Shown here: positions 3,244 through 64,000 of the stretch, one piece after another
How the letters are laid out: the number at the start of each line of letters is the position of its first letter
Numbering within the stretch: the stretch's first letter is position 1
Source: Tribonema minus
Taxonomy: Eukaryota > Sar > Xanthophyceae > Tribonematales > Tribonemataceae
NCBI GenBank assembly: GCA_017506865.1
Contig: JAFCMP010000115.1
Span: forward strand, 178,732-242,731
Length of the DNA: 64,000 nucleotides
Direction: 5' to 3'
Made by a program: the position numbers and the translations under genes
The notes under the pieces: model-generated
What the model was told of the DNA's origin: nothing
The model's database searches: none
The model's input: the letters and a program-made list of their open reading frames with translations, nothing else

Positions 3244-3324
<81 letters not shown>

Positions 3325-19640: not shown

Positions 19641-20086
19641 TAGTGGCCCCAGGTGGCAGCATCAAACCCTTTGCCCCATCAACTCTGAAGCACAATGCAA
19701 CAGCAGCTCAAGCAGTCGGACAAGTGGCAGACGACCCGGGTGGCACAAACTTGAAGCGAGCAAACTCATCAACTTAGAGTGCGCGACGAACGATATCCAA
19801 CGTGCTTTGGAAGCAAGTGATGCCATCACCACCACAAGAGTAGAATACTTGACACATGAGCGCTGCCACTATGACACAATGAACTCCAACCCACGGTACC
19901 ACGGCATGAGCTGGCATCTTGACCTGGGGCATGGCGATGTTGCGGTGCGGCAACGCGTACACGAAGCTGTTTTCAACTTCAAAGCTGGCAATTCACCTGA
20001 GGCGTGCTGCTGTTGCGGTGCGAGGCATGGGCCTGGTGCTGCGGCACAACGAAAACATCAACTACAGTATCACAACTTCACTTCAC
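19641..20086 (-). other. last intron / possible 3' end of the Bicaudal-C-like gene
   Basis: Contains an echo of the 3' end of the preceding exon at about 19995-20030 (CACCTGAGGCGTGCTGC on the plus strand). A candidate terminal exon starts at 19684 on the minus strand (acceptor GTGCTTCAG, then AGT TGA). This would end the protein at residue 955. No poly(A) signal is clear. Confidence 0.35.
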
Positions 20087-23000
20087 CTGAGGCGTGGTGC
20101 TGCCGTGGTGCGGCGATACTCGCTTGAAGCTGTTGTCGCGGCTGGGGCCGTCACTGGCGGCGCTGGCGCTGTCCGTGGACGCGTCGCTGCCGTTGGCGCC
20201 ACGCGAGCACGGCTCAGCAAGGCCCATGTGCGGCGGGGACGCCTGAAGGGGGCGGAGAAGGGGGGGGGCGGGGGGTTAGTGACTGTGATAGCGTGAATAG
20301 GGGGTGCGCAACCTCGGCTCAGCGAGGGCCAGATGCGGCGCGGACGCCTGGAGGGGATGGGGTGGGTGGGGGGGGGGGTCAATCAGTGAAGGTTATGGCG
20401 CGTGAACAGGGGGTGAGCGCGTTGATTCAGGGCGTGCACACACTTGATGTTGATTTGTTCACGTTGAGGTATGTATCTGTTGAAAGCCGTTGTGTGAATG
20501 ACGCAGAGCACACTGCGAAGTGCATGCCGCGCTGCCTGCCTATCAGTCTTCTGCGACGCGCGCACGTGTGAAGCGTGTCCACGCTCACAAACCAAACAAT
20601 TTAGAGATGAGGTTGCGGAGCTAAGTTGAAGTCTTGAGCGCCTCGAGCGCACCTGCACGCTGCCCGTCACAGACGCGGACTCGACGAATTCATGGTTGAA
20701 GTTAGTGAGGCAGAGTTAAAGTTTGAGGATGACGCACCTGCACGCTGCCCGCCGCGGACGCCGACTCGACGCTCCCCATGCGGTGCTCCGGGAACATGCG
20801 CTGCAGCTCCGCCATGATCTGAAAAAGTGGCAATAGGACGTTCGTTTTTGACGTGAATTTATTGATGCTTCAATGTATAATGCTCATGTTCACGAATGAA
20901 ATGCCCATCTGTACTTGATGGAAGGCCATGGTGCACAGAAATTTTGCGCCTGAGATTGGCTCGGTCCGACAGCAACTCGGGCAGACCTTGTCTGTTAACG
21001 GTCAGACCTTGTCTGTTAACTGTGTTGTCGAAGCCAGAAGTGTGTACTTTTAATAGTACGCATAAAGGTGGAACGGCACAACAATAAAAACAAAACGATG
21101 ACGTAGATCGAGGGAGGCTGCTGGGTGTATTCGCGCGGATAGAAAGTGCAGCTCTGGTGCAGACACCTCATTGCGCTTTTTCTCTGCGTGCATATTGATT
21201 CATGTACGTGCCACAGCGACTCCAGGAAAGCGGCCCATTGCAGACTTTGCAACACACAGACATATTTTTCCAAGCCCGTCCTGAATAGGTCATGAACACT
21301 ACCCCAAAGTGGACCAATAACGTATGCGCCGAGGTCATGAAGGCTACCCCGAAGTGCACTAATAATAGGCTCACCTTGAGCCTGGGCCCCTTGACGACGC
21401 CCAGCTCCGCAAAGTCCTGGCCAGAAAAAAAGCATGGCACCCAATGTGTATGTGTTGATGTTAGCCCAATTCCTCTCTCAGCTTGCAAAGAAATTTCCAC
21501 ATATGGGCAGTAATTATAGTGAAATACATTTGATAAAGCAACGCGCAGCAGGTGATGAGGGTTGTAGGGGGCGCGTCAGACGGGCTGCCCTGCCGCAAGC
21601 ATTATGTGGCGAAGCGAGCGAGGGCTGCCACGGATGTCGAGCGCTGCTGCAGATGATGATGAGCGCTGCTGCAGATGGTGATGAGCGCTGTCGTAGATGA
21701 TGCTGAGCGCTGCTGCAGGTGGAGCGCTGCTGCAGATGATGATGAGCGCTGACGCTGATGGCGAGCGCTGCTGCAGATTATGATGAGCGCTGCTGCAGAT
21801 GATCATAAGCGCTGCTGCAGATGATCATGAGCTGCTGCAGGTGATGGTGAGCGCTGTCGTAGATGATGCTGAGCGCTGCTGCAGGTGAAGGTGAGCGCTG
21901 TCATAGATGATGATGAGCGCCGCTGTAGGTGATGGTGAGCGCTGTCCTACATGATGACGAGCGCTGTCGTAGATGACGATCAGCCCTTTCATAGCTGATG
22001 ATGAGCGCTGTTGTAGCTGAGCTGCGGCAGGTGCCGTATCGGTCCGCCGCAATTAGCGGCCCTGGCACGCGTGACGTTGCAGTTGCCGAGCGGGCGAATG
22101 GTGCGCGCGTTCAGTGCGCACAAGAGTGCTGCTGGGTGTACGTGAGGGGGAGGATGGATTTTTTGTGCTACAGCCGAGCGACGACGAGGAAGGAAATACC
22201 CCCTGACGTCTTCACGACGACGTTGCTTACACTGCGCGCTCTACGCCAGATGCGCCTGCCCCGTCCTTTGCATCATCAACTTGCACAAGACCTCGAGGCG
22301 CAGCCGCTTAGGGTAAGTAGGTTAGGAATGGGGCTAGGGTTAGAGTTAGGGTGAGCCCTAACATAACCCTTACCCTAACCCTAACTCTCTGCGCAGCGCC
22401 TTAGAAGACGTCACCGGACACGTCCTCCTTGTCGTCGCTCGGCTGCAGTACAAAAAATCCATCCTCCTCGTAAGGACAGCCAGCGGCGCATTGCGCACGT
22501 CGAACGCGTGCATTACGGCCCGCTCGGCAGCTGCAAGGCCATGCGTGCCGAGGCAAGGCACTTAAAGCACATGGAGGCGTAGGCGAACGGCAGAGCTGCT
22601 GCAGCAGAGCGCTAGCGGGAGAGCTAGCACAGACAACAGTCCTATGAGACAATATACAAACTTCGACTTCAAGTCTTCCTTGCCCACCTGCTCTCCCGCA
22701 TGCATGGCAGGCAGAGCACCAGCGGGGAGGCTTGCATAGAACACAGTCCACAAGACGATCTGCAGATTTCAACTTCAAGTCTTCAAGTTCAAGTCATTGC
22801 TCACCTGCTCGCGCATGGCAGCCATGGCGGCGATGTCCACTTTCGCCTCTTCGAAGCTAGACTGGTACTGAAACGGGCGGATGGCGGTAGATAACACAGA
22901 GGTCATGGCGGTGTGAGCAGCGTATCTTCAAATCATCTTGAATGCACTGACGACGCTTCAGCTTGCAGCGGTCAGTGAATACGAGCTCGTTTCACGTCCT

Positions 23001-26000
23001 CTTGTGGCTACTTGATGACTGTTATCTAGCATGAACTCCAAAGTACATCACGAAAAGGCGATGGCATTTGAGACAGCTCAACACACCTGCAGAACAGCAC
23101 TTCACCCTGGGCCTCAAAACATCAAGTGCATGCTCAGCGACATTCACGGGAAATTTGCAAGTACCAAGTGCTCAATTTCAAGTTCAACTCCAACCTCAAG
23201 ACCTTCAGATCGGCAGCAATGCGCACCTTGAGCATGGCCATGGTGCTGAGGAACTACGCGTGCTGAGCGGCAGCATGGCGCCCGGGGATACTCACATGAA
23301 CTTTTGCTCAAGTAACTTCAAGTACAACTTCAAGTTTAACATCACAAGACCTTCACACAGAGGCGGGCACAGCGCTTTCAACACCCACTTCAAGACCTTC
23401 ACAGCCGCAGCAGCACATACCTTGGACATGCCCATGGCGCTGAGGAACTGGCGCGTGAGCTCAAAGCAAGCTCAAGTCCGACTTCAAGTACTTTCACAGC
23501 AGCAGCGCTCACCTTGGACATGCCCATGGCGCTGAGGAACTGGCGCGTGCTGAGCGGCAGGGTGGCGCCCGGGGGGGCGCGCCCCTCGCGCAGCGCGTAC
23601 GCAATCTTGGCCGCGGGGCCCTTGGGGATGCCTATCTCCACAAAGTCGCGCGCGCCCATGAGGCGCATGGCCTCCAGGTCGATCTCATTCTCCTGCAGCA
23701 ATGCGGGGTGGGGGGAGGGTACTTCAAGTGAGCAAGTGATTCGTTTGAATGCCTATCTCCACAAAGTCGCGCGCGCCCATGAGGCGCATGGCCTCCAGGT
23801 CGATCTCGTTCTCCTGCGACAGGGCGAAGGGGGGGGGGGGGGGGTGAGTGATTTATGTGATGAGTGATTCATGTGATCCGGGGTCAATCTCGGTTCTCCT
23901 GCGGCCATGGGGGATGGGGGGAGAGGGGGGGGGGAGTGTACTTCAAGTGAGTCAGTGGTTTGTTAGGATGCCTATATCCACAAAGTCGCGCGCGCCCATG
24001 AGGCGCATGGCCTCCAGGTCAATCTCGTTCTTCTGCAGCGATGGGGGGAAGGGGGGGGGGGACAGGCTGAGACACACTTGTTGCTGTGATTTCAAGGCTC
24101 ATCGCAGCCAGGCTCCATTCCCAGCAGCAGCAGCAGCAGCGGCAAATCTCGCGCGCATCGGCGCAACCATGGCAGCAGCAGACAACTGACACCCGCACCG
24201 CCATCGTGAGCGCCGTCATCAGCGCCTACGCGCCGCGGCGACACGGCAGCGGCAGCGCCGGCGTAACATCTCAGACAAGCTCGCTTAGTGCCCCAGCTCA
24301 ACCAGCAATTACGACAGCAGTCGACAGCTGCAAAAACTCAAAATCGTAGTGCCCCAGCCCGTTGCCTACGGCCCCAAGATAATCCTCCATGCACACTTTA
24401 CCTAACCTCACCTTGAACACGCTCGCGTAGTGCCCCAGCCCGCTGCCTACGGCCTCCAGGTAGTCCTCCATGCACACCGACGGTGGCGCGGTGAGCAGCG
24501 GCTTGGCGGCATCGCTCAGCGCGAGGGGGGACGCGCCGCCCCCCCTGCGCGTGCCCGTGCCGACGCCCGCCATGCGCAGCATGTGCCCCTCGATGGTCCT
24601 CTCGCCGGTGGCGTTGGCAACGGCGTTGGCGGCTGCGGCAGCGGCAGCAGGAGGTCCAGGGCGAGGGGGGATCAGTGTGTGTGGCAGCAACGGTTAGGAC
24701 AGGGGGCGCACGATCACGCAGGGATGGAAAGCATCGCACGCATGCGTATTCACGATATGCCATATACAAGTAATGCAGTAGGCCAGCCATCGTCCGCACT
24801 CAGCCTCGTGCCGCTCAATGGGCCTCTCGCCAGCGAAGGGCGTTGGCGACGGCGTTGGCGGCTGCGGCGGCAGCGGCGACGGCGAAAAGTGTACGGGGGT
24901 CAGTGTTTGTCGCCTAACCCTACTTCTAATTGCCCTCCGACGCCAGGCAGAACAGCGCCGAGCTGTACACGGACCAGTCGCTCACGTCGTCGCTCGACTT
25001 CAATTTCAATCACAAGTTCAACATAAACTTCAACTCATGCAACCGCGCGTCAGCGCTCACCGTTCTCATCGCCCTCCGACGCCAGGCAGAACAGCGCCGA
25101 GCTGAACACAGACCAGTCGCTCACGCCGCCGCTGCTGGCGGCGCCGGCACCGCCGCCACCGTGCGGACTGCCCTCCATGGAGCCCGTCGTCGGCGCGCCG
25201 CCGCCGCCGCCGGCGGTCGCCGTCTGGATCTGCAGCTGCTGCAGCTGCTGCTGCTGCTGCTGCGCATGCTGCTGCTGCTGCTGCGGTGAGGTGAGCTGCG
25301 CAGGCGGGGCGCCTGAGCGCTGTGACTGCAAGGGGGAAGGGAGGGGGGGGGGAGGGGGGGTGAGTGGTGTTACGGCGGGGGGGGGGGGGGGGTAGCGGTT
25401 GATTGGGGGGCAGGGGGTGGGAAAAAGGGGGGGAGGGGGGGGGTAGCTGAAGCTCGGGGCTGACGGCGGGGGCGGCTTGGGACGGCATGCACGTTCTACT
25501 CACAAAACAACTCATCGACATAAGGTTCTCGACAACAAGCCAGGACCGCGAATTTGTACTCTCACATAGACATGCAAGCTGAGATCGCTGCAGACTACGC
25601 ATGCGCATGGGCTCAAAAATGCAGCAACTCGGCAACCACCTGATCCAGCATCAAGAACTAAACGCCACGCCAACAGACCAGCTGTTGGATGATCTTGTTG
25701 GTTGCAGAAGCAGCTCACTGGCTGAACACTCGTACATCTGCAACAATTCACGGTGCGTACATACCTGAGGGACCCACGGCGCGGCCAGCGGGTTGGGGTG
25801 GCGCGCGCCACCGCCGCCGCCGCCGCCGCTGGTCGGCCGCCCCGCCTGCACACGGTGCTGCAGCGACGACGGCTGCTGCGGCGCAGGCGGCTGCATCGAC
25901 TGCGGCGAGGCTTGCGGCTCGAACGCGCCGGGAGCGGGGCGCACGTCGTGGCCCTGCAGTGACAGGCGGTTACGGGCAGTTGCGGGATGAGCATCGGCTG

Positions 26001-29000
26001 CAGCGAGGCCTGTGGCTCAAATGCGCTGGGCGCAGGGCGCACGTCGTGCGGTTACAGGCGGTTACGGGCAGTTACGGGCAGTTACGAATGAGTGGCGAGT
26101 GAGCGGGGCTGCGCTGCGAGCAGGTGATGCCTGGGGTTACAGGCGTTTCCGGGCGGTTACGGGCAGTTACGGGCAGTGCGTAAGGGTGGTGAGTTGAGGA
26201 GCGCTGCGCGGCAGGTAATGGTGGCGATATACTGCTGCTGCTTGCTGCAGCTGCAGCTGCTGCTGCTGCTGCCGCCGCCACCGCAGAGGAGACCGATGCG
26301 CTGCATACGCGCCACACGTCTTTACAGGTTGAAGAGCGACTTCGCTCTGTCGGATAGCGCCTCCTGTCAGCAGACGCCAGCTTCCACGCGCCTCTAATTG
26401 CTTTTGGTGGCGCTCAGTCTCTCGACAAGAAAGGAAACTGCTATTGCAGGCTTGCATGTGCCAGACGATAGGTCTCGCTTATCAGGCCTCTTCTATCAAG
26501 CCTCTTCTCTCTTCCTGGAACGAAACCCCCATAGAAGTACCTACATACCTGCGCGTGGCCGGGCTTGAACCGGCGGCCCCTCACATGGCCCCAACGGCAG
26601 GTCGCGCTTGAACGACGCGCCGTATATATTAAGCCTCTTCTCTCTTCCTGAATACATCAAGCCTCTTCTCTCTTCCTGAAACAAAACCACAAAGAAGTAC
26701 ATACACACTACGCAGACAGCGCCAGCCGCCAAGGAGTGGGATCGGGTCACGCAGTGGGTGCTTGAGCACTCAATGGGCCTGCAGCCACCAGGCCAGACCT
26801 GGCGCCAGTTTGAGCAAAGTGGGGCCCACTTCCATCTGGCAGCGCACGGCCCAGCCTTACAGCAAGCGCGACTCCCAACACGGCATGGCGGCCTTGGCAA
26901 TACCAGCGCCTGCGACATCGCTGATGCTGCGTATGTGGCGGGCACGTTGCAAGCGCTGCAACCAGCACTCTCTGGATGGGCGGGGGTGCTGCAGCAGGCG
27001 GCTCCTCAAGCGGCTGCAGACAACACTGCTGAGGATGCGGCAACACAAGCGGCACCGGCAGCAGCAGCAGCAGCAGCACCAGCACCAGCAGCATCAGCAG
27101 CGGCAACTGTTACAGCGGCAGCGGCGGTTGCCAGTGGAGGCGCGACCGCTCCGGCAGCGGCAACTGCATCAGCGGCTGGCCGCGCTTATGGCGCAGCCAT
27201 TCCGGCAACACACGACGCAGCTGCCGCTGGATCAGGGGCCGCGGCGGCAGCACAGGCGGCACCAGCGGCAGCAGCAGCAGCGGCGGCGCACGGCGCAACT
27301 ACTCCGGCGGCAGCAGCAGCGGCGGCAGCAGCAGCTGCTCCAGCATCAGAGGCTGCTGCAGCAGCGGCAGCACATGTTGCACCTCAAGTGGCCTCGGCGG
27401 CATCACTAACTGCAGCATCAACAGCAGCGGCTGCGGGCATAGGCAACACAGCTGCTACAGGCCCTACTAGCCTAAGGGCTGCTGCAGCACCTGCAACAGG
27501 AGCAGCGTCGGCAGGCGGCGCCGCAACCGTGCCGGCTGCGACAGCGGCAATGGCGGTGGCAGCGGCCAATGCGGCAGGTGCTGCACCAACACCTGCGGCA
27601 GCAGCAACACCACTGGCAGCAGCAGCAACGGCAGGCGGCGCAGCTGCAGCACCAGCGCACGCAGCAGCGGCAGCCGTCAATGCAGGCGCTGCGCGTTCCA
27701 CACCAGCAATGCTACAAGGCGCAGCAGCAGCAGAGGTGGCGCGCCTGCCCCTCATGCGGACGATCGCCACAGCTGCCACATCTCTACGTGCAGCAACAGG
27801 TGACAAGCTGGAACATATACTGCCACCAGCGCTAACGCCACTGCAGCAGCAACCACCTACGCAGCAGCCGCCGCTGCGGCCGACAGCAGGTGGTGGCACT
27901 GGTGCGGATGCTGCTTGCGTACTTGACGCCAGTGCTCTGCAGTTGCAGTGTAGCCTGAAGCGCCCCAATCAGAGTGCGCTTACAGATGCCGTCGCTACCG
28001 AGCTTGCAGATAAGGTGGAGGCGGACCTGCAACAGCTGCCGCAGGGCACGCAACGCACGCAAGCACTTGCTCGATTCCAGTCGCAGCGCCACATGCACTC
28101 GATCGGCATGGCATTCCTCAACGAGCCCATGTACTCCACAACGGCTTCGTTCGATGGCCTATCCTGGCAGCTGGCCGTCATACGCGCCATCGGAGTAGAG
28201 GAGCAGACGGCAGGCTGCAAGCTGTGCGCGAAGTCGCCGGGCGGCACCCTGCATGCACGGCTGTGTCAAGCGCCACGCGTCAAGGCGCACGACACCATCG
28301 TCCACAATAGCGTCAAGAGGGCCACGCAGCGCATCCTGCGGCAATACCTCAAAACGGGACTGGTGGACGAGGACTACACGCCGTTTCTGGGGTCCGCCGG
28401 GCCGCCGGGGAGTCGCAGGATGGACATCGTGCTGCCTGCCGACGCCTTCCCGGTGACCGGCTACAACGATCCGACACGCCACCTACCGCTCATGGTGGAC
28501 GTTACCTGCTTCGAGGCACAGGTGGCGTCGCGGGCGGCGAAGACTGCAGCAGACCCCGAGCGATGCTGCCGCGACCAAGAGGCCGCCAAGACTACCCACT
28601 ATTCTGGTCATTATGATCAGAATTGCTACAAACTTGCCACTTTGGCAATAGGGTCATTTGGCAGCATCGGGGAGCAGGGGCGGAAGCTGCTGGAGGCTGT
28701 GGCGATGGAGTATGCCAGCAGGATGTCAGTGCCCGGAGGAGCGCGCCCTAAAGCTCTCAAGGGCATCGCCCTGGCGCGCTTACGCTCGGCACTGTCGGCA
28801 GCGCTCCACATGGCGTACTCTGGCCGTGTCATGACACACATGGCAGAATCCAGGGGGGGGGGGCACATGGAGGAGGACGTAGGGGAGGACCCCGAGATGC
28901 CATTTAGCAGCGGCGGCGTCGTTTGAGTGGTTGTCGTTGCGACACTTTCAGACTGTCATACGACATGTAGATTCCTTACAGCTAGATGCCAATCATCTGG

Positions 29001-38493: not shown

Positions 38494-40109
38494 ATGGCCG
38501 GAGAGCTCAGCCCCAACTACGTCGACGACTTCAGCGCTATCTCGCAGAAAACGGATGGGTACGTTGCCCAGGGCTATGTCGCAATGTGCACTCCTCACAA
38601 TGTATTGCCTACAACATCGTTGCCCCCCGCACCGCAGCTCCCCAATGTTGTCGCCAGTGTCGCCTTCATTAAAAATTCGAATTGTGTTACAAATCACCGC
38701 GCTAGCCACTCTGGCTGCTCACGTCTGCTTGCTGCTATTCATGTGTCAGTGTGGAGCGATCTGCGGACACGGAGGCGATAAAGCGGGCGTATAGGAGCAA
38801 ATGCCTGGAGCTGCACCCCGACAGGATACGACAGCGGGGGCAGGAGGTAAATAGTGTCATTTGAAGTTCATCGTGAAGTCTAGCAACAGAGATGCGGTTC
38901 TGAGAAATCCCTTGTTATGCAAATATCTTGGCAGGGAGAGAAGGAACTGTCACTTAGGGTCACCTGTCGGTAGCCATGCTTGCCAAGCGGTGCATGCATC
39001 AGAGACATTTCATGTTGTTGATGCTGATTCTTGCGCTGATGTGCTGCATGTGCATAACTATTCACTGCCTGCGTATTTTGGCAAGCTTCGACACTCCCCC
39101 TCACTACCATCACTGTTGCCATGGTTGTTGGCTGCAGTCTGCGATCCCTGGATACTTCTATCATCGCCGCAAGCGTTTTCGCTCGTAGCCTCTGTAACGC
39201 AGGCACAGTACCGCGGCTGTCTGTGTTCAACGCTGCATCGCAGAGCCTGTGTCCACATCATTGGGATGCCAGTGTGCTGCTGTGTGTGTACATGCACAGA
39301 AAGACTGCAGTATGCTCAGCAAGGACGAGCCCGTGAATATGTACTTCAGTTGAAGTTGTACTGCGACAACAACGTACATATGCCCTGCTGCTATGTCACT
39401 CACATTGGCTTATCGGTCAAAAGGAACTGAAGAAGAAGAAGAAAGTTCAGTTGTTACTGCGGTAACTGCAGACTCCACGCAAGACACCAAACGGTGGGTC
39501 TGTTTTTCCAACAGCCCACGCTCACTTGGCGGCGATGGCGGTTGGGAGTTGAAATGTGTGCAGGCGCAGAAAGAAAACCGTCGCACACATCATGAACTTC
39601 AACACATGCGGCCCTTGAGCTGTGTGCCAACGCGCACCCCGCGCAAGCTTCAAGACGCGAAGACCACGCGCGCTCGCCGCGAGTGCGCCACATTCTCACG
39701 TGCGCCATTCGCCCGCGCAGCTCAGCCTCTGCAGTGGCGGTGCAACGCGCGCGCTGCTACACTCCTTGAAGTGCGGCGCACAGCCGCGTGCCGCGCGCGT
39801 GCAGGCCAGCGGACGCCTGCAGGGCGCGCGCCTTCTGCATACTTCAAGCGTGACGCGCTTTCGCATGCTCTGCTTCATACTTCAAGTTCTGCTACATACT
39901 TCAAGTGTGACTCAAGTCTCTCCGACGTGACGCTCTGGCCCGCGCTCCGCATCTGCGCGTAGGTCACGGACGCGCACAGAGCGCGCTTCCAGCACATGAA
40001 GCAGGCGTACGATGTGCTCATCGACCCCAAGCGGCGGGACCTGTACGACCAGCTGGGCGAGACGGGCATGATGATGATAGAGGACCCCTCAAATCTGTCC
40101 ATGGAAAAG
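38494..40109 (+). other. J-domain exons
   Basis: Helix I (VDDFSAIS) is in the first exon. Helix II and the HPD loop (DTEAIKRAYR, LELHPDR) are in the second. Helices III-IV (RFQHMKQAYDVLIDPKRRDL) are in the third. The join of exons 1 and 2 puts four extra residues before GVERSADTE, so the 38558/38750 junction is the least certain part of this gene model. Confidence 0.8.
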
Positions 40110-52100: not shown

Positions 52101-54799
52101 GCTGCCGCGGGCTGCAGTTGCCAAGATGGCGGGTGCGGACTTCAGCACATTCATCATCTTCATCCCCGTCTTTGCCGCGGCGGGCTGCCTCGTGTGCACC
52201 ATGTCGTGCCTCATCTGCTGCATGCGGTGAGTGAGTCAGTGAGTGAGTGACCGAGTGAGTGAGTGAGTAGATCGTGTGCACCATGTCGTGCCACATCTGC
52301 TGCATGCGGTGAGTGAGTGAATGAGTGAGTGAGTGAGTCGACTGCACGGCTCAGCGCACGACAGCAGGCAGCTGCTCGCGTGTATCGTCCGGTCCCCCCT
52401 GTCCTTCCGGTCGCCCCCGTTGTCGATACGTGTAGTGGGCGCAGCGGTGCAGCGCCTCGAACCAGCCCAGGGGGCGTCCGAACCCTAACCGCAACCCTAG
52501 TAGCTATCACCTGTGTCCCGGGCGATCCCTGCGCGCGGCAGCAGCGCTCCTGCACCGCAACGCTGGTATTGTCTTTGCAAAGGCGGCGGGTCCAGCCACT
52601 GGTCGCTCTTGGCATGCGCGCACACCCTGCGTGCTGCACAGCTGCACACGCATACGTTCTGCTTGGCGGCTCACGCCACAGCGGTTAAAGGCGTACCGTA
52701 CTGTACACTCTGTACAGGCCGCATCCGCCCTTTGCGCCTGCCACATCAGCCGCTGTTGATGGTCGAAACACTGACACCCAGCGTTTTCACCAGAGGCTCT
52801 CGCAGCGGCCGCCTTGTTTTCTCTTGGCAACGCTCAGCTATGGGCCTACCGCGGTGCCGTCCACGTCAAGTGCGTTTCTCGCGCCGCCGCCGCCGCAGCG
52901 CGCGCGCGAGCACGGCAGCGCTCGCTGGATCATGCGAGTCGGCAGCGTCAACATCAGCTGGGCCTTACCGGTGGTAGCTTTCTTGCGCTGCAAGCAAGCG
53001 GTGGCGACGGCGCACACACGCAGGCAATGCGCAGCAACAGGCAGGCGACCGCAGTCACTCAGCAGGCCTCTTGAAGATGCGGGGCGCTTATATGCCCTTC
53101 ATGGTTTCCTTGCGCCAAAGCTCCACTGACCACTATGATCAATACAATGGTAGGCGCCGGTTTCGTCACTCACGGGCCCCGCCGACTTGTCATCCCCCCC
53201 CCCTCGCGTGCAGCGGCGATCTGAGCGATATGGACATGGAGGCGGGGGAGGGGGCGCCAGGGGCAGGGGGCGCGGGCGGAGCGTCATCTTCAACTACGGC
53301 TGCGGACGCGCCGCTGCCAGCGGAGTACACGCCCTACGTCGGTAACTACGTAAGTGCGCCGTGTGGCGATACGCCATGCTTGAGGTCGTGTGTGGCTAAA
53401 CATGGCAGAATGCGGCGAAACAGTCGCTGGCGCTGCGCCGCCCGTCGGCGCTGCCAATGCTGCTGTGGCATGGCGCCTTTCGAGGGTGTGAGCTAGGCCA
53501 GCCGTGGGCGTGTATGTGTGCCGGGCATGTGCGGCGGGGCATGCTGTCAATGCGCGTGCGACTGCCGCACTCCGCAGCAGCTAGAATTTTGTGCAGAGGA
53601 TGCTCAGATGTGCGAGTTGCGGCGGACCTAGACTTAGACTCTTACTAGAACTCTGAAACGTGCAGCGTTACTACGTTGCGGTGTGCTTGTGTGCAGGGCG
53701 CCATACGCTCATGACTGTGGGTGTGGCCCCTGCGCACAACGCGGCCGCCAGCGCGCGCGCACGCGGTTGCTGCCTTGTCTCCAGAGCGAGCGCAGACACA
53801 GGTTGCAGACGGGGCGCGCGCGCAGCAGGTTGGACATCGCCAACCTTTACTGAGCCCTGTTGAAACTTGTGCGGACAAGCTAGCAACTGGCGCGCCAGTT
53901 GCAGTTGCCAGTTGATGTGAATTTGCGGCACGGTTGGTCTGATTTTGCGGCACGGACAGAATGCGCGCACGCGTAGCAGGTCGTACAAAACACCAGTCCG
54001 AGCGGCATTGACTGCATCCCAGAGAAGCTTGCGATCGCTACACCCTGTTGGAGTAACATCAACGGCCCCGGCAGGTAGAGGGCCTCCGCTTGCTGCATGC
54101 GAGACCTTGTGTGTGCGCAGCTGCGAGGCCGCCAGTCAGGATTTGTGTTAGCGTTAGGGTTAGTGCCATGTAGCAACCGCGCTGCTGTGGTTTATTGCTT
54201 GGCGGGCGGTGCTGTGCGTGGGGCGGCCCACCGTCGTGCAGCGTCGGCGGTTGAGTTGCGCATGTGGATTGCATGCGTCACACATAGAGTGCGTGTACAT
54301 TGCCCTCTTGCTGGCCTGCGATAGCATCTCGTGCCCTCTCATCTTCTGCACCGTCGCACCGCGTGAGCACCTGGCGCAAGCAAAGCCCTGCCGCCTGAGA
54401 GCGCTGCGCCGTCTCCGCGCTCGCGCGACATCAGCTTCTGCGCGCGCTGCGTCGCCACAACCTCTTGTACAAGCACCTTCCCCCCTTCTCTCCGAAAGCT
54501 GGCTGCACATGCACACGCACATAGCCATTGTAACTGCCGCTGTGGCGCGTACGCAGCAATCAGCGGCGCCGCTGTCTTTGAGTCAGCAATTGCGACTCGC
54601 AACTAACCCGCCGCTTCAACCCCCCCTGCTTTCGCAGAAGCCCCCCCAGGCGGACCCCACGCCCACCGCGCCAGTTACAGAGCTGCCTCCGCCGCCAACT
54701 GCAACTTCAACTTCAACAACTCCACCGCCTGCGACGTCGCCGCAGCAGCCCACGCGCGTCCCCACGCCCGTGACGACCATCGACGCCGACATTGACTGA
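38494..54799 (+). CDS. J-domain protein with TMEM185-like multi-pass membrane region, 522 residues
   Basis: Fourteen exons join in phase: 38494-38558, 38750-38846, 39963-40109, 41011-41144, 41790-41871, 43405-43544, 45048-45153, 46913-46992, 48519-48675, 49583-49651, 50410-50494, 52118-52226, 53214-53349, 54638-54799 (TGA 54797-54799). The J domain covers about residues 11-96, with LELHPDR carrying the HPD motif and ending in RRDLYDQLGETG. From about 118 there are seven or eight hydrophobic segments. Repeated W-x-W/PLW signatures (SWAVVWIPLWIYD, TWSWACVLVPWLVW, TWDWWAVWWP) match the Tmemb_185A (TMEM185/FAM11) family. The C terminus (about 424-522) is low-complexity, rich in Pro/Thr. HPD implies Hsp70 stimulation, probably at an endomembrane surface (inference). 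The gene is over 90% intron; intron 10 has a GC donor (GCAAGT at 49652). Confidence 0.92.
40120..40530 (+). repeat. five 3' echoes of exon 39963-40109
   Basis: Copies of ATGATGAT(A/C)GAGGAC...CCATGGA(G/A)AAGGT at about 40120-40180, 40265-40325, 40320-40395, 40415-40465 and 40470-40530. Most retain the exon end MEK, the GT donor position and following intron bases (GAAGTACGCT). Divergence grows unevenly from copy to copy. Confidence 0.9.
41281..41362 (+). repeat. 3' echo of exon 41011-41144
   Basis: Reads AMLLFPVLPCAKIDNNIS against AMLLFPILLCAKIDDDIS, then keeps the donor GTGCGT and the following TCTTCTTGAAGT of the real intron. Confidence 0.93.
42340..42765. repeat. interstitial telomere-like repeats, both orientations
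   Basis: CCCTAA-type tracts at about 42346-42360, 42429-42450 and 42482-42499 are followed by degenerate AGGGTC/TTTAGG and then TTAGGG tracts at 42717-42760. They lie in intron 41872-43404 of the J-domain gene. Confidence 0.9.
43028..43885 (+). repeat. 5' and 3' echoes of exon 43405-43544
   Basis: 5' echoes at about 43028-43075 and 43225-43270 repeat GGCATTGAAGAGGAGCTCTG behind an acceptor-like tract. 3' echoes at about 43608-43650, 43684-43730, 43757-43810 and 43838-43885 repeat CTCACGCTGCGGCTGGACTC, the donor GTGAGTGACT and the following TTGAAGTTGGC(A/G)ATG intron sequence. Confidence 0.93.
44440..45040 (+). repeat. 5' echo array before exon 45048-45153
   Basis: Four or five units of about 110-130 bp contain TCCCTCCA(A/G)A(T/C)CTCTGTCTC, a TGCTGCTG block, a GTGCGTGCG run and GCAGGTGGTC(G/T). 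The end of each unit resembles the acceptor and first bases of the exon (GTGCAGCTGGTCGTGG). Confidence 0.85.
45268..45345 (+). repeat. 3' echo of exon 45048-45153
   Basis: Near-identical copy of the last 70 bases of the exon (GAGAGCGCGACGCTGTGCGC) and of the donor region CAGGTCATT. Confidence 0.95.
45780..46870 (+). repeat. intronic minisatellite with telomere-like and TTGAAGTT sequence
   Basis: After a TTAGGG tract (45800-45832), about ten units of roughly 80-140 bp share CTAGGGTTGAAGTTAACGC, AAGC(C)C-AAGTAGC(C)CTGAT, CACCCTTGGCATATGCT and CGTTCTCTGTCTCGCCT. Several later units end in GCCTGCTG(C/T)GTGCAGGG, which is the acceptor and first bases of exon 46913-46992. Confidence 0.9.
47080..47312 (+). 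repeat. two 3' echoes of exon 46913-46992
   Basis: 47080-47147 and 47242-47312 repeat AAGCGCG(C/T)-GC(C/T)GTCATGAT, GTGCGCCA, the donor AGGTGCGACACGGC and the downstream GGCCGCC bases. Confidence 0.93.
48776..49030 (+). repeat. two 3' echoes of exon 48519-48675
   Basis: 48776-48865 and 48972-49030 repeat CTACTGGTCTACTTGCAGGT-type sequence, the GTGCGCGCCACG donor region, the TGTGTGTG run and a following poly(G) tract. Confidence 0.9.
50562..50682 (+). repeat. two 3' echoes of exon 50410-50494
   Basis: GTG(C/G)(C/T)GCTGGCGGGTGAGCG, the exon end plus donor, recurs at about 50562-50600 and 50643-50682, each followed by CTGCC-CGCA and a GAATGAATG-rich spacer. Confidence 0.9.
52268..52330 (+). 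repeat. 3' echo of exon 52118-52226
   Basis: CACCATGTCGTGCC(A/T)CATCT with GCTGCATGCGGTGAGTGAGT recurs once; only one coding base differs over about 40. Confidence 0.95.
53885..53900. repeat. 16-bp perfect palindrome
   Basis: AACTGGCGCGCCAGTT in intron 53350-54637 of the J-domain gene, followed by two further GTTGCAGTTGCCAGTT-like copies. Confidence 0.8.
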
Positions 54800-56144: not shown

Positions 56145-59100
56145 ATGAGGTCTCAGCGGCTAGCGCTGGCAGCAGCAGTGGCCGCGGCTGCAGTGAGCGC
56201 TCACCCGCAATGTCTTGATGCCTCATCTCCGAGCCAAGCGCTGCAAGACCAACTTAGTTTCTGCAATCGACCAAGCGATGCGACGACTAGCAAGGGCGCA
56301 TGCTGTAGCAGGCAGCAGGAGCTGGCGGCGAAGGCTCAGCTCTATACGCCCCATCTGCCTCTTTCGGATGCGTGCAAGCCATACCAACGGCAGGTGGCGT
56401 GCGGTGAGTCTCATCAAAACGAGTGCGTGTCTCCACTAACTGGCGTTGCGCGCTAATGGGCTAGCTGTCGCGCGGCCAGGCACCAACTATTATAGCAGCG
56501 TTTGCAACCCGGGGGCTCATAATGGCTGACGCTGTCGCACGAATGATGCTGGAGCAGCACTGCACAGTAAACATAATCAACGTCTCGATAGAAATTAAGA
56601 ACTGTGACTAGTAATGGTGCATGCGCATTTGCCAGCACAAAGGTTCAGTTGCAATGAAGGTTTGACCATTTCGAGTCCAGGGCCCACTGTGCGAGGATTG
56701 TCGCTGTGTGCGACTTCAGGTTAATTCGCTCCGACGCTCTCAGGACCCCAGCAGAATCTGCTTGCTTTGGACACATTTTAATTTGTGCTTGGGGCCTGTC
56801 TTCGCTGTGTTTTTTCAAAATTCTCCTGTTGCAAACTGAAACTTGAGAGTGGTCATCATCATTCACAGTGTCATGCCGGAGTCTGGGGTCTTGATATAAT
56901 CATCACTTACTTACTGTGTGTGGACACGTCTGGTGCTGCCATTGCAACTGTCAGCTCCAACAGCCTGAGCAGCACCCTGCATGCTTTTCCAGGGTGTTCT
57001 GCTTATTCCACCGTCACTTTCAGTGAATATGCTGTTACAGCTAACGGCATGAGACTGCCGGCAGCGTTGACATGTCGTCTTCAGTGAACCGACTGCGCCC
57101 CTGAAAGCTTTTAAGAGTAGAAGCTGGTGTGCACCATACCAACATGTCTGTCGCCCAAACCATTGACCAAACACCAACGACCGTGCGCCTGTGAGATCAG
57201 CTCACTCATCCAACAGTTGTGATCCGGCAATACAGGCTGCTCCGCACGCCCTTCTGGTTTGCTGCAAGCGCAGACGCTGCTCAGTGGCAGAGCACAATCT
57301 TCCATATATCAGAACTCCGCTGCACATGTGTGTTGAATTTTCAAGTCAATTGTCATTGGCAAGCCTGCATCGCATGTCCCTGTTACCGCTGGCACTTGCT
57401 GGGGTTAGGCTCAAGACCAAGAGCAGTACATGGTAGCTGTTGTTGGTGTACTTCACTGCCAACTCATCGCATTGTCTTTCTCTGTGTTGACTGCCAGCTA
57501 TGGCTCTGCTGCAGCTGCGTGTCTCGTATAGCTGGCCTGGTGGCAAACAACAACTTCAAATCAACAACTTCAAGTGATGGCGCTCGTCAGTGATGGCTGC
57601 TGCTTCCCCAAATCCCTCCGTTAAAACTTCACTTTCTGTTCCGTAAATGTATCTTCTTGTCGGCTGAGCATCGCGCTCTTCACGACATCACACATGTTGA
57701 CGCTGCGCCGCCGTGCTGCGCGCCGCCGCCGCCACCGCCGCCAGTCTCCTTGCAGTCACCACGCACAGCGCGCACCGTGTCCGCACTTCTCGCGTAGAAC
57801 GCGCCGCGCTCGCCGCACCACGCTTTCTGTGGCGCTTGCGTGATTGCTGCGCGCGCACGCCGTCATCTCAGCTCCGCGCCACATCTCACAAACCTGCGCC
57901 GCCGCGCTGCGCTGCGCGCTGGCGCCGCCAGGCTCGTGCTCGCCCTACGCGGCGCACATCGCGAGCGCACCTCTCTCGTAGACCGCGGCGCAATCGCCAC
58001 ACCACGCTTCCGTGGCACTCGTGCCGCCGCGCCGCGGCTCACGACATCCCACATGTTTACGCTGCGCCGCCGCACCGCGCGCCGCCGCCGCCGCCGCCAG
58101 GCTCCTGCTCGCCCTACGCGACGCGCATCGCATTCGCGCCTCTCTCTTAGCACGCGCCACGCCGCGGGTGCTCGCGAGCGCTGCGCGCACGCGGTCTCCT
58201 CAGCTCCGCGCCGCACCTCACGACATCAGTGCTGACATTGCGCCGCCGCGCTGTGCCCCGCCGCCGCCGCCGCCAGGCTCCTGCTCGCCGTACGCGGCGC
58301 ACATCGCGAGCGCCGCGGACGGCCTCACGGGCATGTGCGCGCCGTTCTGCGGCGCGTACGTCGCGGCGTGCGGCGCGGAGCTGGGCCTCGCCGCCGACTT
58401 CTGCGCGACGCGCTCCACCGCGAGCGCCTACTGCTATCCCGACTACGCCGCCGAGAACCTCACGCCGAGCTCCACGGCGCTGCAGCCGTACTGGCCGCGG
58501 CTCGACGGCCACGGCAAGCTGCCGACGCAGCCGATAGGCATGTTCATGAAGCCGGGGGGCAACAGCTGGTGGATCGTGAACCAGCGCGGGCAGATCTCGC
58601 AGATCCGCAACATCCCCGGCGCGGAGCAGCTGACGCCGATCCTGGACATCAGCGACCGCGTGATTCAGGGCGGCGCGACGGGCGAGCTCGGCGAGATGGG
58701 CCTGCTGGGCCTTGCCTTCAGGTGTGAGCCCTAATCCTAGCCCTACCCCTAGTCCTGACCCTAGACCTAACCCTAGACCTAACCAAAAACACAGGGCGGC
58801 GCGACGGGCGAGCTTAGCGAGATGGGCCTGCTGGGCCTCGCCTTCAGGTGTGAGCCCTAGCCCTAGCCCTAATCCTAGTCCTAGCCCTAGCCCAACCCTA
58901 GACGTAACAGGCAGTGTGCGCGCGGTGCACCGCGTGCGTATGCCTCGGCAGAGTTTGAGCACTGGTTGCTGAGCGCTGTCATGACTGACTGCTGAGCGCT
59001 GCGCACTGTTGCACACGTGCGCACACGCGGGCGCAGCGCGGATGGAGTCGCTGCATGCGACGCCATGCGTGTACGCGCCCGTTGCATTGAGCGCTGCTCA

Positions 59101-62100
59101 CTGACCTGAGCGCTGCTGCGCTGACACTAATTGCTGAGCGCTGTTGCGCGCGTACGCACGCCGCGCGCAGCCCCGACTTCCTGCGCACGGGCTACTTCTA
59201 CGTCAACTACATCAACCTGGCGCGCTTCACCGTGGTGGCGCGCTTCACGTTCGCGAGCGGCAAGCCCAAGAAGACCGCCGCGTCCGAGGTTCAGGTGCGC
59301 CGCGCTGCGGTGGAGCGCCGAGCGCTGATGCCATCAAGCAAGTGCAGGAAAACGCAGATTGCGATGACGCGTGCAGTGCGTGCGCGCAACTTGTGCGTGA
59401 TTAAACTGGCGTAGGCTGACTTGAGAGCTGGCGCGCTCTGCGCTGGCACCACACTCTTTTGCCTTGTCTCGTGTCGGTTTGCGCGCTGGTTGGTCAAGAC
59501 AGCAGGGGGAGGGGAGGGGGGGGGGGGGGGGGTCGATTGCCGCACAGCAGTCCTGGGGAGAATTAGACGAGAGCGGTGTAATGCGCTGCACTTACAGCGC
59601 GCGCACAGCATGCTCAAGTTCAGCCGTGCGGACGCTCGGTGAAATCAGGGCTTGCAATCGCTGTATGAATGTACGTGTGTACGTGTATGTACGATAGCAT
59701 GAATTGTGATGCAAGATTGTCAAGTGCAATGCGGCTGCCTGACTGTCACCCCCCCTGCCCCCCCCGCTTGGCGCTGTCCACTCCTTACGCAGATCCTGTC
59801 GCACTGGCAGCCGTACGAGAACCACAACGGCGGCACGCTGCTGTTTGAGCCCGGGGACCTTGCGGACCCGTACGCGGCGGGGAAGACGGGATACAACCTA
59901 TACATACCTACGGGTAAGTAATTGTACTCACAGCAACGCTTGCAACTGTATCTTGCACGCCTGCAAAAACCATGACGAGTTCCGCTGTTGCGCCTGCAAC
60001 CGTTGTGACAGGCGACGGCGGCCTGTACGGCGACCCGGACCCACTCACAACTGTGACTCTCAACTCTGACTCCGAACTGTACCTTGCACGTCTTCAAATC
60101 TTGCAATATCATGACGACTTTGCTATTGCGCTGCAAACCGTTGCGACAGGCGACGGCGGCCTGTACGGCGACCCTGAGAACCGCGCGCAGGGCGTGAACG
60201 TCAGATGCGCGACTCACGACTGCGACTCTTGACTAAGACTTTGAAAGTGCACATGTACCACATGACTTCATGTTGCTCTCTTTGTGCTGCAAAACATTGC
60301 GCCAGGCGACGGCGGCCTGTACGGGGATCCTGAGAACCGTGCACAGGACGTGAACGTCAGATACGGCAAGATCCTGAGGATCACCCTGCCCGCGGGGACG
60401 AACGAGGGGGGCTACTCCATACCGGAGGGCAACATCAGTGCGGAAGTGTGGGCGTACGGCTTTAGAAACCCCTGGAAGTGAGTCAGCCCGGTGGTTGTAT
60501 GACCTTTTGAACTACGTACTTTTACTTGAAGTGCCTCAGAAGTGCCTGCCCTTGAAGATGTACTTGAAGTTATCTCAGTAGTGCCTGCCCGTGACGCATG
60601 ACTTTGTTAGCGCTGCAGTGCGACTCTGGTCAAAATATGTCATATGCGGCTTGAGCGGACTTTGTTAGTGCAGTTGCTGCAATGTGACGACATCGTGTGT
60701 AGCAGCGCTTCATACCTGGCACGGCCAATGTTGACTGAGGAGCCCGCGCTGACCCCAGTTTTGCGGGCTATTGACTGGTGCAAACGAGAACTCTGGATGC
60801 GAGAGCTGGCATAACCTCAACAATGTTTGCTCTGCACGCGCTGGCGATGCTTGCGCTTGAAAAGTGCCGTTGTCACTTCATCTAACCCCCCCTGCATGCT
60901 GCCCCTCCTGTGGCGGTCAGGTGCACATTTGACAGGGCGCACCTGGACGCGCCGCAGATGTGGTGTGGCGACGTTGGTCAAGACAAGTTTGAGAAGGTGA
61001 GTGAGTGAGTGAGTCAGTGAGTGAGTGCGAGGCAAATGTGGTGCGGCGATGTCGGCCTGGACAAATTTGAGCAGGTGAGTGAGTGAGGTTTGGGAGCCAA
61101 TGTGGCGCGGCAGCGTTGTCTATGACAAGTGTTGGGAAGGTGAGTGAATGAGTGAGTGCTCAAGGCTTGAAGTGGGGAAAATGAGACAATGGTGTGCATG
61201 TGATGGGGCTCTGGCGCCTTTGTCACAGCATGGTGGCGCAATGGACGGCTGTCAGCCCTTTTTCTGGGTCAGTGCTACAAGGTCACAGCCGCAGCGGCAG
61301 GTATGCGTGTGTGGAGCTCCTGAGCATATGCCACAGAGCGGTGCCAGCATGGCCCTAACGCTGACGCCCTACGAAGAATCGCAAGAGGAGAGTTGCGGCA
61401 GTCCCTCCTTGCATGCCATGCGCCGACATGCCAAGGCTACATGAGCACGGAGGGTCATATGCCACTGCTGTGAGGCGACGAGTCTGCGTGAGTCGCTTGC
61501 GCTGAACGAGGAGGAGCAGCGTGAGTGAGCCTGCAACAGCAGTCCGAGCGCTTGTGGTTGTCGGCGCCGTTGAGCGTTGCCATCGCCGCAGCGCTCAGCA
61601 AGCCTGCGCTGCAGGGGGGTGTGACCGTCCGCGCGCATACATAAATGTATGCACACATGTTGGTCATGCAGCTAGGCCCATGTGCACGGCGCGCCTGGCT
61701 CGTGCAGAGCACATGCGCACACGGCAATCCGACGCTCTGAGGAAGCAGCTCCTGCGTCTGCCCCCTGTGTGCTGCTGGGCCGGGCGCACGCCAGTCATGA
61801 TCGAGCCGCCATGCGCACACGTATGCGCCTTATTTTTCTCTGGTCTCACGGAGCGCTGCTGCCTCGCTCGCCAGGTGATCCGCGTCCTGCCGCGACAGAA
61901 CCACGGCTGGCGCAACTACGAGGGCAGCTCCCTCTACTCGCCGCCCAAGATCGCCTACGTGGACCCCGACTTTGAGTGAGACTTCCACACACTCAGTAGT
62001 TCAAGTGCATGTGGAACATCAGCGTTGCCAGATTGCCTACGTGGACCCCGACTTTGAGTGAGGCTACCACACATGGCCGCGTACTCAATAGTTCAAGTGC

Positions 62101-64000
62101 ATGTTGAATATTACTGTCGCGATCGCCTACGTGGGCCCCGACTTTGAGTGAGGCTTTCAACAAGGCCTGCTTGCTACCCTATGTGAATGCCGAAGTTCGG
62201 CGCTGCCGCTGCGTGTTCGGTACGTGCGTAGAGCCGCGCAGTCGACCGAGGCTGGCAAGGAGGATAGGCGAGAATTCCAGCAAGAAGCTTGGGGCGTACG
62301 TGCTTGAGTGCGAGGTTTGCGACCATGTAGAGTTGCGGCCGCCGCCGCGTGGACAGCGTGTTGGCATGGAGCGCGTGTATTGGCCATGTCCTGGCAATGC
62401 AATGCTGTGTCCAAACCTGCAGTCCTTGGGGGTGGGGTCAGGGTTTGAGGTTGATCTCATCACTCTGCATACAGTAGGTGCACGGCGGCAAGACACGTAC
62501 GCTTGCACCCAAAACTGCGAGAGGGGGGATGACGCGTCTCGCGCTTATGCTGAGCTGGCGAGCTCGGGCAAAGCTTGAGTTGGAAGCTCCTCGTCGTGCG
62601 GTTTGCAGCTCACTGCAGTCCCCCCCGCACAGTGCACTACTGTATCTGCTAGGGGCGTGAACTGCAAGCGCAAACACACGTGACGTGCTCACAGTCTCGC
62701 GTTCCTGCTGTACTGACTACACTCCAAAGTACGACGTTTCCCCCCTGGCACACAGCCACCCAATCTTCATGCAATCCATCAGTTTTGCGCGCCCTTATCT
62801 GCAGCCCACTGCTTGCCCTCCTGGGGTATGTATGCAGGTACTGCAGCGGCGGGGTACAGCTTCGGTCGGAGCTCATCACTGCACCATTTATTTTTCTTGG
62901 AGAGTTCGTCGTTGAACTGCGCGACTCACTCCCTGGTCCATGCAATTTTTACGCGATCCTACGGGCGCCCTAACCTGCAGCCCATTGCTTGCCCTCCTGG
63001 GTATGTATGCAGGTACTGCCACGGCGGAGTCACCAATGCGCCCAAGCAGTGCGCGGGCAAGACCTTCACCGGCGAGTCCGTGACCGGCGGGTGAGCGCTG
63101 CTGCTGTTGTATCTTCCAGTTCTTACATACTAGGAGCTCGTGGCACCTCGCGTCAACTTGAGCGCTGGTGCTATTGTTTCTGTGAAGTGTCTGGTCAGAG
63201 TCACTATTGCTGCTTCCCAAGCCATGGTCCGGTACTTTGCTTCACCCGCACGTACACATGCAAATGCACACAGAAGTAGCTACAAGGCATCATCGCCATA
63301 TGTGCCAAACGTTGTTGCACCAAGAAAAAGCCAGAGGCTCCCCAAGGCCTGAGGACCATCGCTTCTATCGTATATGCGGCTGTGTTACAGGACGTCAGCT
63401 AGCTAGCAATCTCTCCGCCGGGTTGTGCATGCTCGCTTTTGGCAGTTCTTGAAAAGCACGATGAGCTCCCTGCGAGGGTGCAAAAGCAACTTCAACTTGC
63501 AGTGCTTGGCTACGCTACTGACCAGTGCCCGCAGCAACTGCGTGAGGCCTGCGGCTGCTTTCTCATGAGATGCGTGGCAGTGGCTGAACTGGGCACTTCC
63601 GAAGTGCTTCCTACCACTTCCGTGCTGGCGCTGGCTTTGAGGGTTAAGGTTAGGGTTAGGGCTAGCTTGGCAGCTCCAGAACCCTGCTTACAACTTCGTG
63701 CTGGCACTTGCCTGTGCTCTGATGTACATGGTCTACATCGCCGGCAGAGATGGCAGCAAGTGGCAATTATTGGATGTTTTGATTAGGCATGCACGTGGCA
63801 GCAAGTTGCGGCCGTCTGTTGCTCCCCAGAGCATTTCATTTGTGCGACGAACTTCAAGTTCATGAGACACTGAGTACGCCATCTTGTGCGCGCTCTCTGG
63901 TGCGCATGAAGGTTGACCTCGTGGTGCCCGCTGTGCCCTCGTTGTCCTTGCAGGTACATCTACAGGGGCACCAAGCAGGCTGACATGTACGCCGGGCAGT
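56145..64000 (+). CDS. secreted HHIP-like / glucose-sorbosone dehydrogenase family protein (3' partial)
   Basis: Nine exons join in phase: 56145-56403, 58277-58721, 59171-59294, 59793-59913, 60306-60477, 60921-60996, 61875-61975, 63013-63090 and 63954 to the window end (about 474 residues, incomplete). Residues 1-19 are an Ala-rich signal peptide. HPQCLD at 20-25 and a Cys-rich region (CC at 53-54, SCSPYAAH near 88) match the folate-receptor-like N-terminal domain of HHIPL proteins. The beta-propeller domain of PQQ-dependent glucose/sorbosone dehydrogenases follows: GLLGLAF, YFYVNY, ENHNGGTLLF, GDGGLYGDPENRAQ, YGFRNPW, WCGDVGQDKFEKV, NHGWRNYEG and YIYRGTKQADMY. The His of NHNGG aligns with the conserved region of family members. 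Substrate and PQQ dependence cannot be judged; vertebrate HHIP relatives are not enzymes. It acts extracellularly or in the secretory pathway (inference). Confidence 0.93.
57680..58276 (+). repeat. three tandem units of about 185 bp ending in acceptor plus exon start
   Basis: Each unit contains CACGACATC(A/C)CACATGTT-ACGCTGCGCCGCCG, a CCGCCGCCGCCGCCAG acceptor, a copy of the start of exon 58277-58721 (GGCTC(C/G)TGCTCGCCCTACGC, clear at about 57920 and 58100, weak at 57735), then CACCACGCTT or similar. The fourth acceptor is the one used in the proposed gene. Confidence 0.9.
58735..58912 (+). repeat. CCCTA-rich telomere-like tracts and 3' echo of exon 58277-58721
   Basis: Two CCCTA(A/G)(C/T)CCTA-type tracts (58728-58785, 58854-58905) each follow a copy of GAGATGGGCCTGCTGGGCCT and its donor AGGTGTGAGCC. 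The echo is at 58790-58852. The duplicated unit therefore includes exon end, donor and telomere-like intron start. Confidence 0.93.
60000..60205 (+). repeat. two 5' echoes of exon 60306-60477
   Basis: Copies at about 60000-60045 and 60135-60205 repeat CTGCAA(A)(A)C(C/A)(G/A)TTG, the acceptor ACAG, and GCGACGGCGGCCTGTACGGC. The second continues through GAGAACCGCGCGCAGGGCGT before diverging into stops. Confidence 0.95.
61025..61145 (+). repeat. two 3' echoes of exon 60921-60996
   Basis: About 61025-61080 and 61095-61145 repeat ATGTGG(T/C)G(C)GGC and a GACAA(A/G)T(T)TGAG(A/C)AGGTGAGTGAGT-like end, the second more decayed. Confidence 0.88.
62030..62152 (+). repeat. two 3' echoes of exon 61875-61975
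   Basis: GATCGCCTACGTGGACCCCG with ACTTTGAGTGAG(G/A)C recurs almost unchanged at 62030-62062 and 62122-62152. Spacers share CTCA(G/A)TAGTTCAAGTGCATG. Confidence 0.95.
62795..62860 (+). repeat. 5' echo of exon 63013-63090
   Basis: CTGCAGCCCA(C/T)TGCTTGCCCT, CCTGGG, GTATGTATGCAGGTACTGC, and CGGCGG occur here and again at 62980-63026, where the exon continues in frame. Confidence 0.95.
63640..63662 (+). repeat. short interstitial TTAGGG-like tract
   Basis: GGTTAAGGTTAGGGTTAGGG in intron 63091-63953 of the HHIP-like gene. Confidence 0.85.

Follow-up and report, generated by a model that had tools for sequence, protein, structure and literature searches.

Vertebrate 'doublets' were reportedly described by Thomas et al. 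in 2004. In the parts of the literature drawn on here, vertebrate repair-mediated duplications of this type include splice sites, 4 of the 824 donors in a human set being partial exon/intron cases; that set left out copies within 50 bp as tandem (Pace et al., 2009, PMC2671141). A tandem genomic duplication across an intron–exon boundary appears as a single case in the potato RdRp gene (PMC4974935), and introns have been proposed, and documented, to arise by tandem duplication of proto-splice sites (Lehmann et al., 2010, PMC2891723; PMC3296678). Here we analyse the final 64 kb of contig C115 (JAFCMP010000115.1) of the alga Tribonema minus, hereafter the window, taken from an assembly of 158 Mb in 554 contigs. 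Within three genes of this window, exon ends together with their splice sites recur as partial copies inside the adjoining introns.

As far as the sections cited describe these systems, each shares some features with the window. As in potato RdRp, tandem duplication takes in the 3′ end of an intron together with the 5′ end of the exon that follows, but there a single event created a new intron, whereas here dozens of junctions are involved and the partial copies lie inside existing introns. Like the vertebrate doublets, these are short local duplications carrying splice sites, and some copies are likewise spaced; unlike in the doublets, most copies are tandem, and between a fifth and a third of the sampled junctions are affected. 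As in Lehmann et al. (2010, PMC2891723), gene structure is shaped by tandem duplication of coding sequence that carries splice signals; in their cases the exon segment that is duplicated turns into a new intron, while here an old intron is lengthened. The nuclear genome of Haematococcus lacustris (151 Mb) has the AACCCT telomere repeat at scaffold ends and short repeats in tandem or complex patterns; it resembles the present genome in its AACCCT-type repeat and short tandem repeats, and the repeat section of that account mentions neither exon-edge copies nor junctions (PMC7617258). A literature search by titles and abstract openings returned no report of exon-edge copies at so large a share of junctions (a fifth to a third). 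The duplication process is thus familiar, while neither the density observed here nor the effect on introns seems to have been described before. What the locus offers is a direct, dateable view of intron lengthening, in which exon–intron edges are duplicated and the copies are left to decay.

All coordinates are window positions unless a contig or locus is named, with A denoting the first base of an exon and D the first base of an intron. The three window genes were modelled from sequence and their splice sites are predicted. Their joined exons match the expected Pfam families (SAM_1, 6e-9; KH_1, 6e-24; Tmemb_185A, 1e-6; GSDH, 2e-19; DnaJ, 4e-5, the last at 24.1 bits against a Pfam cut-off of 27.8), and the splice models are therefore mostly right. 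An 80-bp probe laid across each junction and searched against its neighbourhood (±1.2 kb) found a same-strand partial copy at 31 of 56 tested junctions (19/28 donors, 12/28 acceptors), compared with 1.1% of trials with unrelated foreign sequence; a stricter probe score retained 28/56. Three further junctions beyond this set, A43405, D52227 and A58277, are covered by self-BLAST pairs. Self-BLAST of the window yielded 105 pairs no more than 4 kb apart, 102 of them direct. The tandem exon-end copies at D43545, the two copies of the SAM exon start at A23692 and the two donor-edge copies at D61976 are clear by eye. The first-pass annotation had put the number of affected junctions in three genes at more than twenty, with both acceptor and donor sides involved, and both statements are borne out by the probe counts. 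Its description of tandem copies of about 80–190 bp holds in part: a tandem arrangement, with the intron part decayed, is seen for many copies, but some are spaced, and the offsets range more widely (medians 197 bp for donors and 256 bp for acceptors; 10–90% range ∼ 90–480 bp).

For comparison, a sample was chosen by protein family from Cpn60/TCP1 (56 matches, all used) and kinesin (132 matches, 50 rows used, those within the sample regions). The sample regions hold 26 genes; 20 regions are full-length and seven shortened, the seven being picked as compact multi-exon genes. Family hits were joined via splice-site scores and profile continuity, giving 58 introns in 24 genes, of which 5 were removed as uncertain before duplications were counted, leaving 53 introns in 22 genes. 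Since the hit tables already showed some overlapping hits (C51, C5, C135, C246:701357 and C511:562024), the sample is family-chosen and not fully blind.

Window and sample together hold 95 junction-spanning copies at 46 of 162 junctions. With 1.5 kb searched on both sides of each junction, all 95 lie in the adjoining intron; the exon-attached copy is the 'original' by construction. Among 100 exon-derived copies, 90 cross the junction by at least 4 bp, another 6 have their end no more than 3 bp from it and 4 break off within the exon; such a distribution is what tandem geometry requires. The median copy contains 27% of its exon, and a whole exon is found in only one of the 100, that exon being only partly modelled.

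We consider it highly probable that these copies result from frequent, short, local same-strand tandem duplication that is untargeted and filtered by selection on exons. Duplication in the nuclear genome would occur at a high rate, mostly head-to-tail, in units of ∼ 75 to a few hundred bp and anywhere along genes. Units lying inside an exon would disrupt the reading frame and presumably be purged. A unit straddling a junction would leave the exon edge intact and place an additional copy of that edge within the intron; as long as the exon-attached site is still used, the message would be unchanged, the copy tolerated, the intron lengthened and the copy free to decay. Repeated events would build arrays. 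The molecular cause may be replication slippage or break repair. A copy holds one splice site and, in the median, about a quarter of an exon, so exon definition would be expected to ignore it, and this may be why the copied sites are passed over.

The local pairs in the window and the 26 gene regions agree with a tandem process: 382 are direct and 29 inverted, the median of their offsets being 202 bp. Among 133 nearest non-exonic pairs, 92 show tandem continuation (x y x′ y′), and in 24 unrelated sequence separates the copies; the signal is weak in 14 and undecided in 3. No direct pair with both copies mainly within modelled exons was found in 26,113 exon bases, which fits removal by selection. 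The spaced pairs are unexpected from simple tandem duplication and speak for a different main process, in which break repair copies a nearby stretch and inserts it locally (copy-and-insert, by synthesis-dependent strand annealing, as for doublets). The fresh non-exonic pairs (at least 88% identity) point the same way, since 19 of 21 are separated by a spacer and have ungapped flanks that look random; of the other two, one is a tandem pair of 411 bp and one a tandem array. Among the nearest exon-derived copies, 18 of 34 testable cases have no similarity beyond the aligned part and 15 do; in the remaining copies the spacer was too short or lay inside the aligned part. A gapped test nevertheless identified 11 of the 19 freshest nearest pairs as tandem, so that local copy-and-insert would account for a minority of events at most. 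Free capture would also not predict that only 4 of 100 exon-derived copies stop at least 4 bp before the junction, nor does it sit well with the tandem continuation in most nearest pairs and the strong bias to direct orientation. Copy-and-insert in its pure form, first suggested by the fresh pairs, is weakened by the gapped test and by the scarcity of exon-only copies, and we regard it as unlikely to be the main process; it overlaps with tandem duplication as proposed above, which is compatible with more than one molecular cause.

A transposon, an introner or an assembly artefact is extremely improbable. The assembly is in 554 contigs and repeats are common, which would suit such an origin, but one 401-bp query searched genome-wide (very common words skipped) matched only itself, a local copy and one paralogous exon on another contig (77%), and the copies mostly differ by 5–30% in a graded decay unlike that of assembly duplicates.

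The first-pass annotation had left two possibilities, a local process that favours splice junctions or random tandem duplication that is visible only where it overlaps exons, and had proposed to compare purely intronic with junction-spanning duplications. By BLAST, 10/53 donors and 13/53 acceptors of the sample (23/106) are spanned by a local duplicate, as are 20.7% of 9,800 random intron points at least 120 bp inside the intron. By probe (one acceptor probe was lost to masking, leaving 52 of 53), copies were found at 36/105 junctions, for 106/358 deep-intron probes and for 21/99 wholly intronic probes beside a junction; at the stricter score the counts are 30/105, 92/358 and 12/99 respectively. 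A fifth (BLAST) to a third (probe) of the sample junctions therefore carry copies. Deep-intron probes, up to eight per intron, are not independent, and the bootstrap resampled genes; it gave a confidence interval (CI) of −3.6 to +12.7 points for junction minus deep intron and −17.6 to +1.0 for near minus deep. A simulation in which duplications fall anywhere and one exon copy is constrained gave detection ratios of 1.01–1.21 depending on age, with 1.16 observed, and the small surplus at sample junctions matches that expected from slower exon decay alone. In the sample, junction-spanning duplications are not clearly more frequent than intronic ones, the outcome that the first-pass annotation had named as counting against a junction preference; junction targeting is not supported there, and the counts and the simulation favour random tandem duplication. 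The window alone gives the opposite picture, with 31/56 junctions against 67/213 deep-intron probes.

This window excess is the main evidence for junction-targeted duplication, according to which transcribed splice junctions would initiate duplication through R-loops or splicing-coupled breaks and be true hot spots. The high count of donor-side near probes in the window (15/27), the pooled junction excess of window and sample (+0.8 to +19.3 points) and the clustering of exon-edge copies by gene (permutation p 0.028) also favour it. Because the window was singled out for the pattern, we treat its excess as selection and do not weigh it equally with the sample, where the CI includes zero, the intron beside junctions is not enriched and the observed ratio agrees with a simulation free of preference. 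Outside the window, BLAST coverage, probes, gene bootstrap and simulation gave targeting no support, and we hold it to be quite unlikely. A related and similarly improbable scenario is that of hot genes, in which duplication would be coupled to transcription or splicing with junctions as preferred starts, and one-sided decoys would have forced exon definition and occasionally yielded introns, perhaps including one in the chaperonin gene L044 (see below).

The divergence of the copies indicates their fate. Exon-derived parts differ at 250 of 2540 positions (9.8%) and intron-derived parts at 399 of 2278 (17.5%); by codon position, the exon-derived mismatches are 9.0, 6.2 and 14.3% (positions 1, 2 and 3). 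This is the pattern of a free copy compared with a constrained exon, as full coding constraint would lower positions 1 and 2 much further. The copied GT/AG is intact in 84 of 95 copies, whereas the same dinucleotides elsewhere are retained in 80/97 cases on the exon side (p 0.31) and in 87/151 on the intron side. Dinucleotide retention, used as a test for purging of decoy splice sites, gave no sign of it, nor is there clear retention of the copied sites. The retained GT/AG, the splice-matrix score, by which 41/95 copies at least equal the real site, and the low divergence at codon position 2 would suit exons or splice sites that serve as functional alternatives or backups and are maintained by selection. 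Yet a whole exon occurs in a single, partly modelled case, so that a copy carries just one splice site; mismatches persist at codon positions 1 and 2 (9.0 and 6.2%), and the retention of GT/AG does not exceed that in the exon-side control (p 0.31). Functional exons were thus tested by codon position, dinucleotide retention and completeness without support, and we find them very unlikely; the copies look like neutral debris. With so many junctions bearing copies and most copies keeping GT/AG, the genome constitutes a natural test of how the spliceosome chooses between a real site and a near-identical decoy. It also calls for caution, since gene predictors and homology searches may call false exons in such genomes. 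Our Pfam scans gave apparent echoes as extra hits, for example at C51:21979 and 22169 beside 22346.

Two paralogous chaperonin genes of the sample, L044 and L039, have matching exons and show intron growth within the lifetime of one gene duplication. At the five junctions compared, L044 has 16 exon-edge copies and none was found in L039. The L044 copies are 92.0% identical to their own exon and 80.2% to the paralogue's exon, the exons themselves being 84.4% identical; as they are nearer to their own exon, the copies postdate the gene duplication. Four shared introns (that after exon 4 is excluded) measure 2382/357, 897/479, 1131/772 and 823/524 bp in L044/L039 and are 1.5–6.7 times longer in L044. 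Across 53 introns, length rises with the duplicated fraction (rho 0.53, p 5e-5). Two further proposals of the earlier annotation gain support here: that duplication lengthens introns, from this correlation and the L044/L039 introns, and that the copies decay rather than act as alternative exons, from the exon/intron divergence described above.

At 8203–8847 of L044 (G000:C516) an intron splits cpn60, where L039 and the more distant cpn60 gene L043 code straight through. Judged from the three sequences, it is a candidate intron gain, or would otherwise require two losses. This intron already bears donor and acceptor copies, in an order that by eye is unlike a simple AGGT tandem duplication.

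Several observations weigh against untargeted tandem duplication acting alike everywhere, in addition to the window excess, the spaced pairs and the gene clustering given above. L044 has 31 self-duplicate pairs in 9.9 kb and L039 only 2 in 6.5 kb, which points to an uneven process; one of the L039 pairs starts ∼ 10 bp inside the exon at the fifth donor, so that L039 is not wholly free of it. The length correlation is partly mechanical, because short introns cannot hold detectable pairs. Divergence at codon position 2 is below half the intron value, and weak constraint on some copies is possible. Finally, the splice sites are predictions, and the baseline consists of family-chosen genes rather than random genome regions.

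The clustering by gene means that duplication is not uniform among loci, and together with the L044/L039 contrast it indicates that rates differ between them. Local-duplicate coverage of window positions 1–12000 is 0.000, which had suggested a difference between introns and intergenic sequence. That idea is weakened by exon-like stretches within the region, and gene-to-gene variation is the simpler reading: by coding score, a further gene lies at 1573–6786 (+), without detectable local duplicates, unlike its three neighbours. Intron G+C does not account for duplicate coverage (rho 0.19, p 0.17), and no clear rule linked duplication to contig-end position, with coordinates judged by eye only. 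At 36338–37160 lies an exact head-to-tail duplication of 411–412 bp with 98.5% identity, whose edges by eye lack microhomology.

The first window gene, a KH+SAM (BICC1-like) gene at 20087..36251 on the minus strand, was identified by its KH_1 and SAM_1 matches and a coding scan and has 16 modelled exons, the first of them ending at D35941 and the last spanning 20242–20087. Donor-edge copies found by both BLAST and probe are, in gene order, that of D35941 at 35762..35846 (88.6% to 35933–36017), of D33669 at 33402..33530 (82.9% to 33662–33790, with a second short copy at 33280–33321), of D32444 at 32343..32400 (93.1%), of D31344 at 31168..31226 (83%), three successive copies of D30217 at 29635..30106 (count by reading), two of D23512 at 23179..23457 and one of D20737 at 20648..20686 (89.7%). 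The same two methods found acceptor-edge copies of A32612 (two, at 32738–32821 and 32930–33013), A31485 (31573..31648, 85.5%), A29160 (two in tandem at 29276..29537, count by reading), A25953 (25991..26171, 73%), A24632 (24808..24877, 81%), A23692 (two at 23749..24059, both 90.4%) and A20242 (20307..20418, 74%). Three exon-end copies stop short of the donor: that near D31947 (31809..31867, 94.9%) ends 3 bp before it, with no similarity found past it, that at D25060 (24924..24994, 91.5%) has an alignment ending 2 bp before it, and that near D24411 (24345..24396, 90%) ends 14 bp before it. All these copies are on the minus strand. A KH+SAM paralogue, L003 (G000:C540), likewise has a copy (92%) of the donor edge of a shared exon in its own intron, with too few differences to tell a shared from an independent origin.

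A J-domain and TMEM185-like membrane protein gene lies on the plus strand at 39960..52226 (Pfam, coding scan); seven exons were modelled at 43405–52226, and extra coding stretches lie upstream at ∼ 39960–40085 and ∼ 41005–41139 (+). BLAST and probe both detected donor edge D43545 repeated three to four times in tandem (period ∼ 80) at 43610..43888, tandem copies of acceptor edge A45048 at 44521..44852, two copies each of donor edges D46993 (47082..47322) and D48676 (48786..49061), and donor edge D50495 repeated about twice in tandem (period 84) at 50562..50715. BLAST provided two copies of acceptor edge A43405 at 43036..43288, one of donor edge D45154 at 45276..45374 (89.9%, 68 of 106 exon bases) and one of donor edge D52227 at 52272..52338 (92.5%). 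This gene also has a probable GC-AG intron at 49652 (donor GCAAGT).

The third gene, at 58277..64000 (+), is glucose/sorbosone dehydrogenase-like (GSDH; Pfam), has eight modelled exons and reaches the contig end. Its acceptor edge A58277 has a copy at 57680..57968 (72.8% to 58039–58313; BLAST). Copies supported by BLAST and probe are those of donor edge D58722 at 58792..58908 (89.8%), of acceptor edge A60306 in tandem at 59944..60209 (two by reading), of donor edge D60997 at 61032..61087 (83.9%), of donor edge D61976 at 62030..62167 (two) and of acceptor edge A63013 at 62789..62855 (89.6%). The copies of this and the preceding gene are all on the plus strand.

Within a KH+SAM intron, an open frame of 748 codons without a Pfam match runs on the opposite strand at 26680–28926 (+), between exon edge D29046 and the copy of D29046 at 26535–26624. 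It may be a later insertion; that it is a mobile element is a guess. Short CCCTAA/TTAGGG arrays, many of them intronic, occur at 42421, 42706, 43590, 44183, 45809, 47747, 49889, 51656, 58730 and 63640, and long arrays of CCCTAA also lie close to the starts of contigs C2 and C3.

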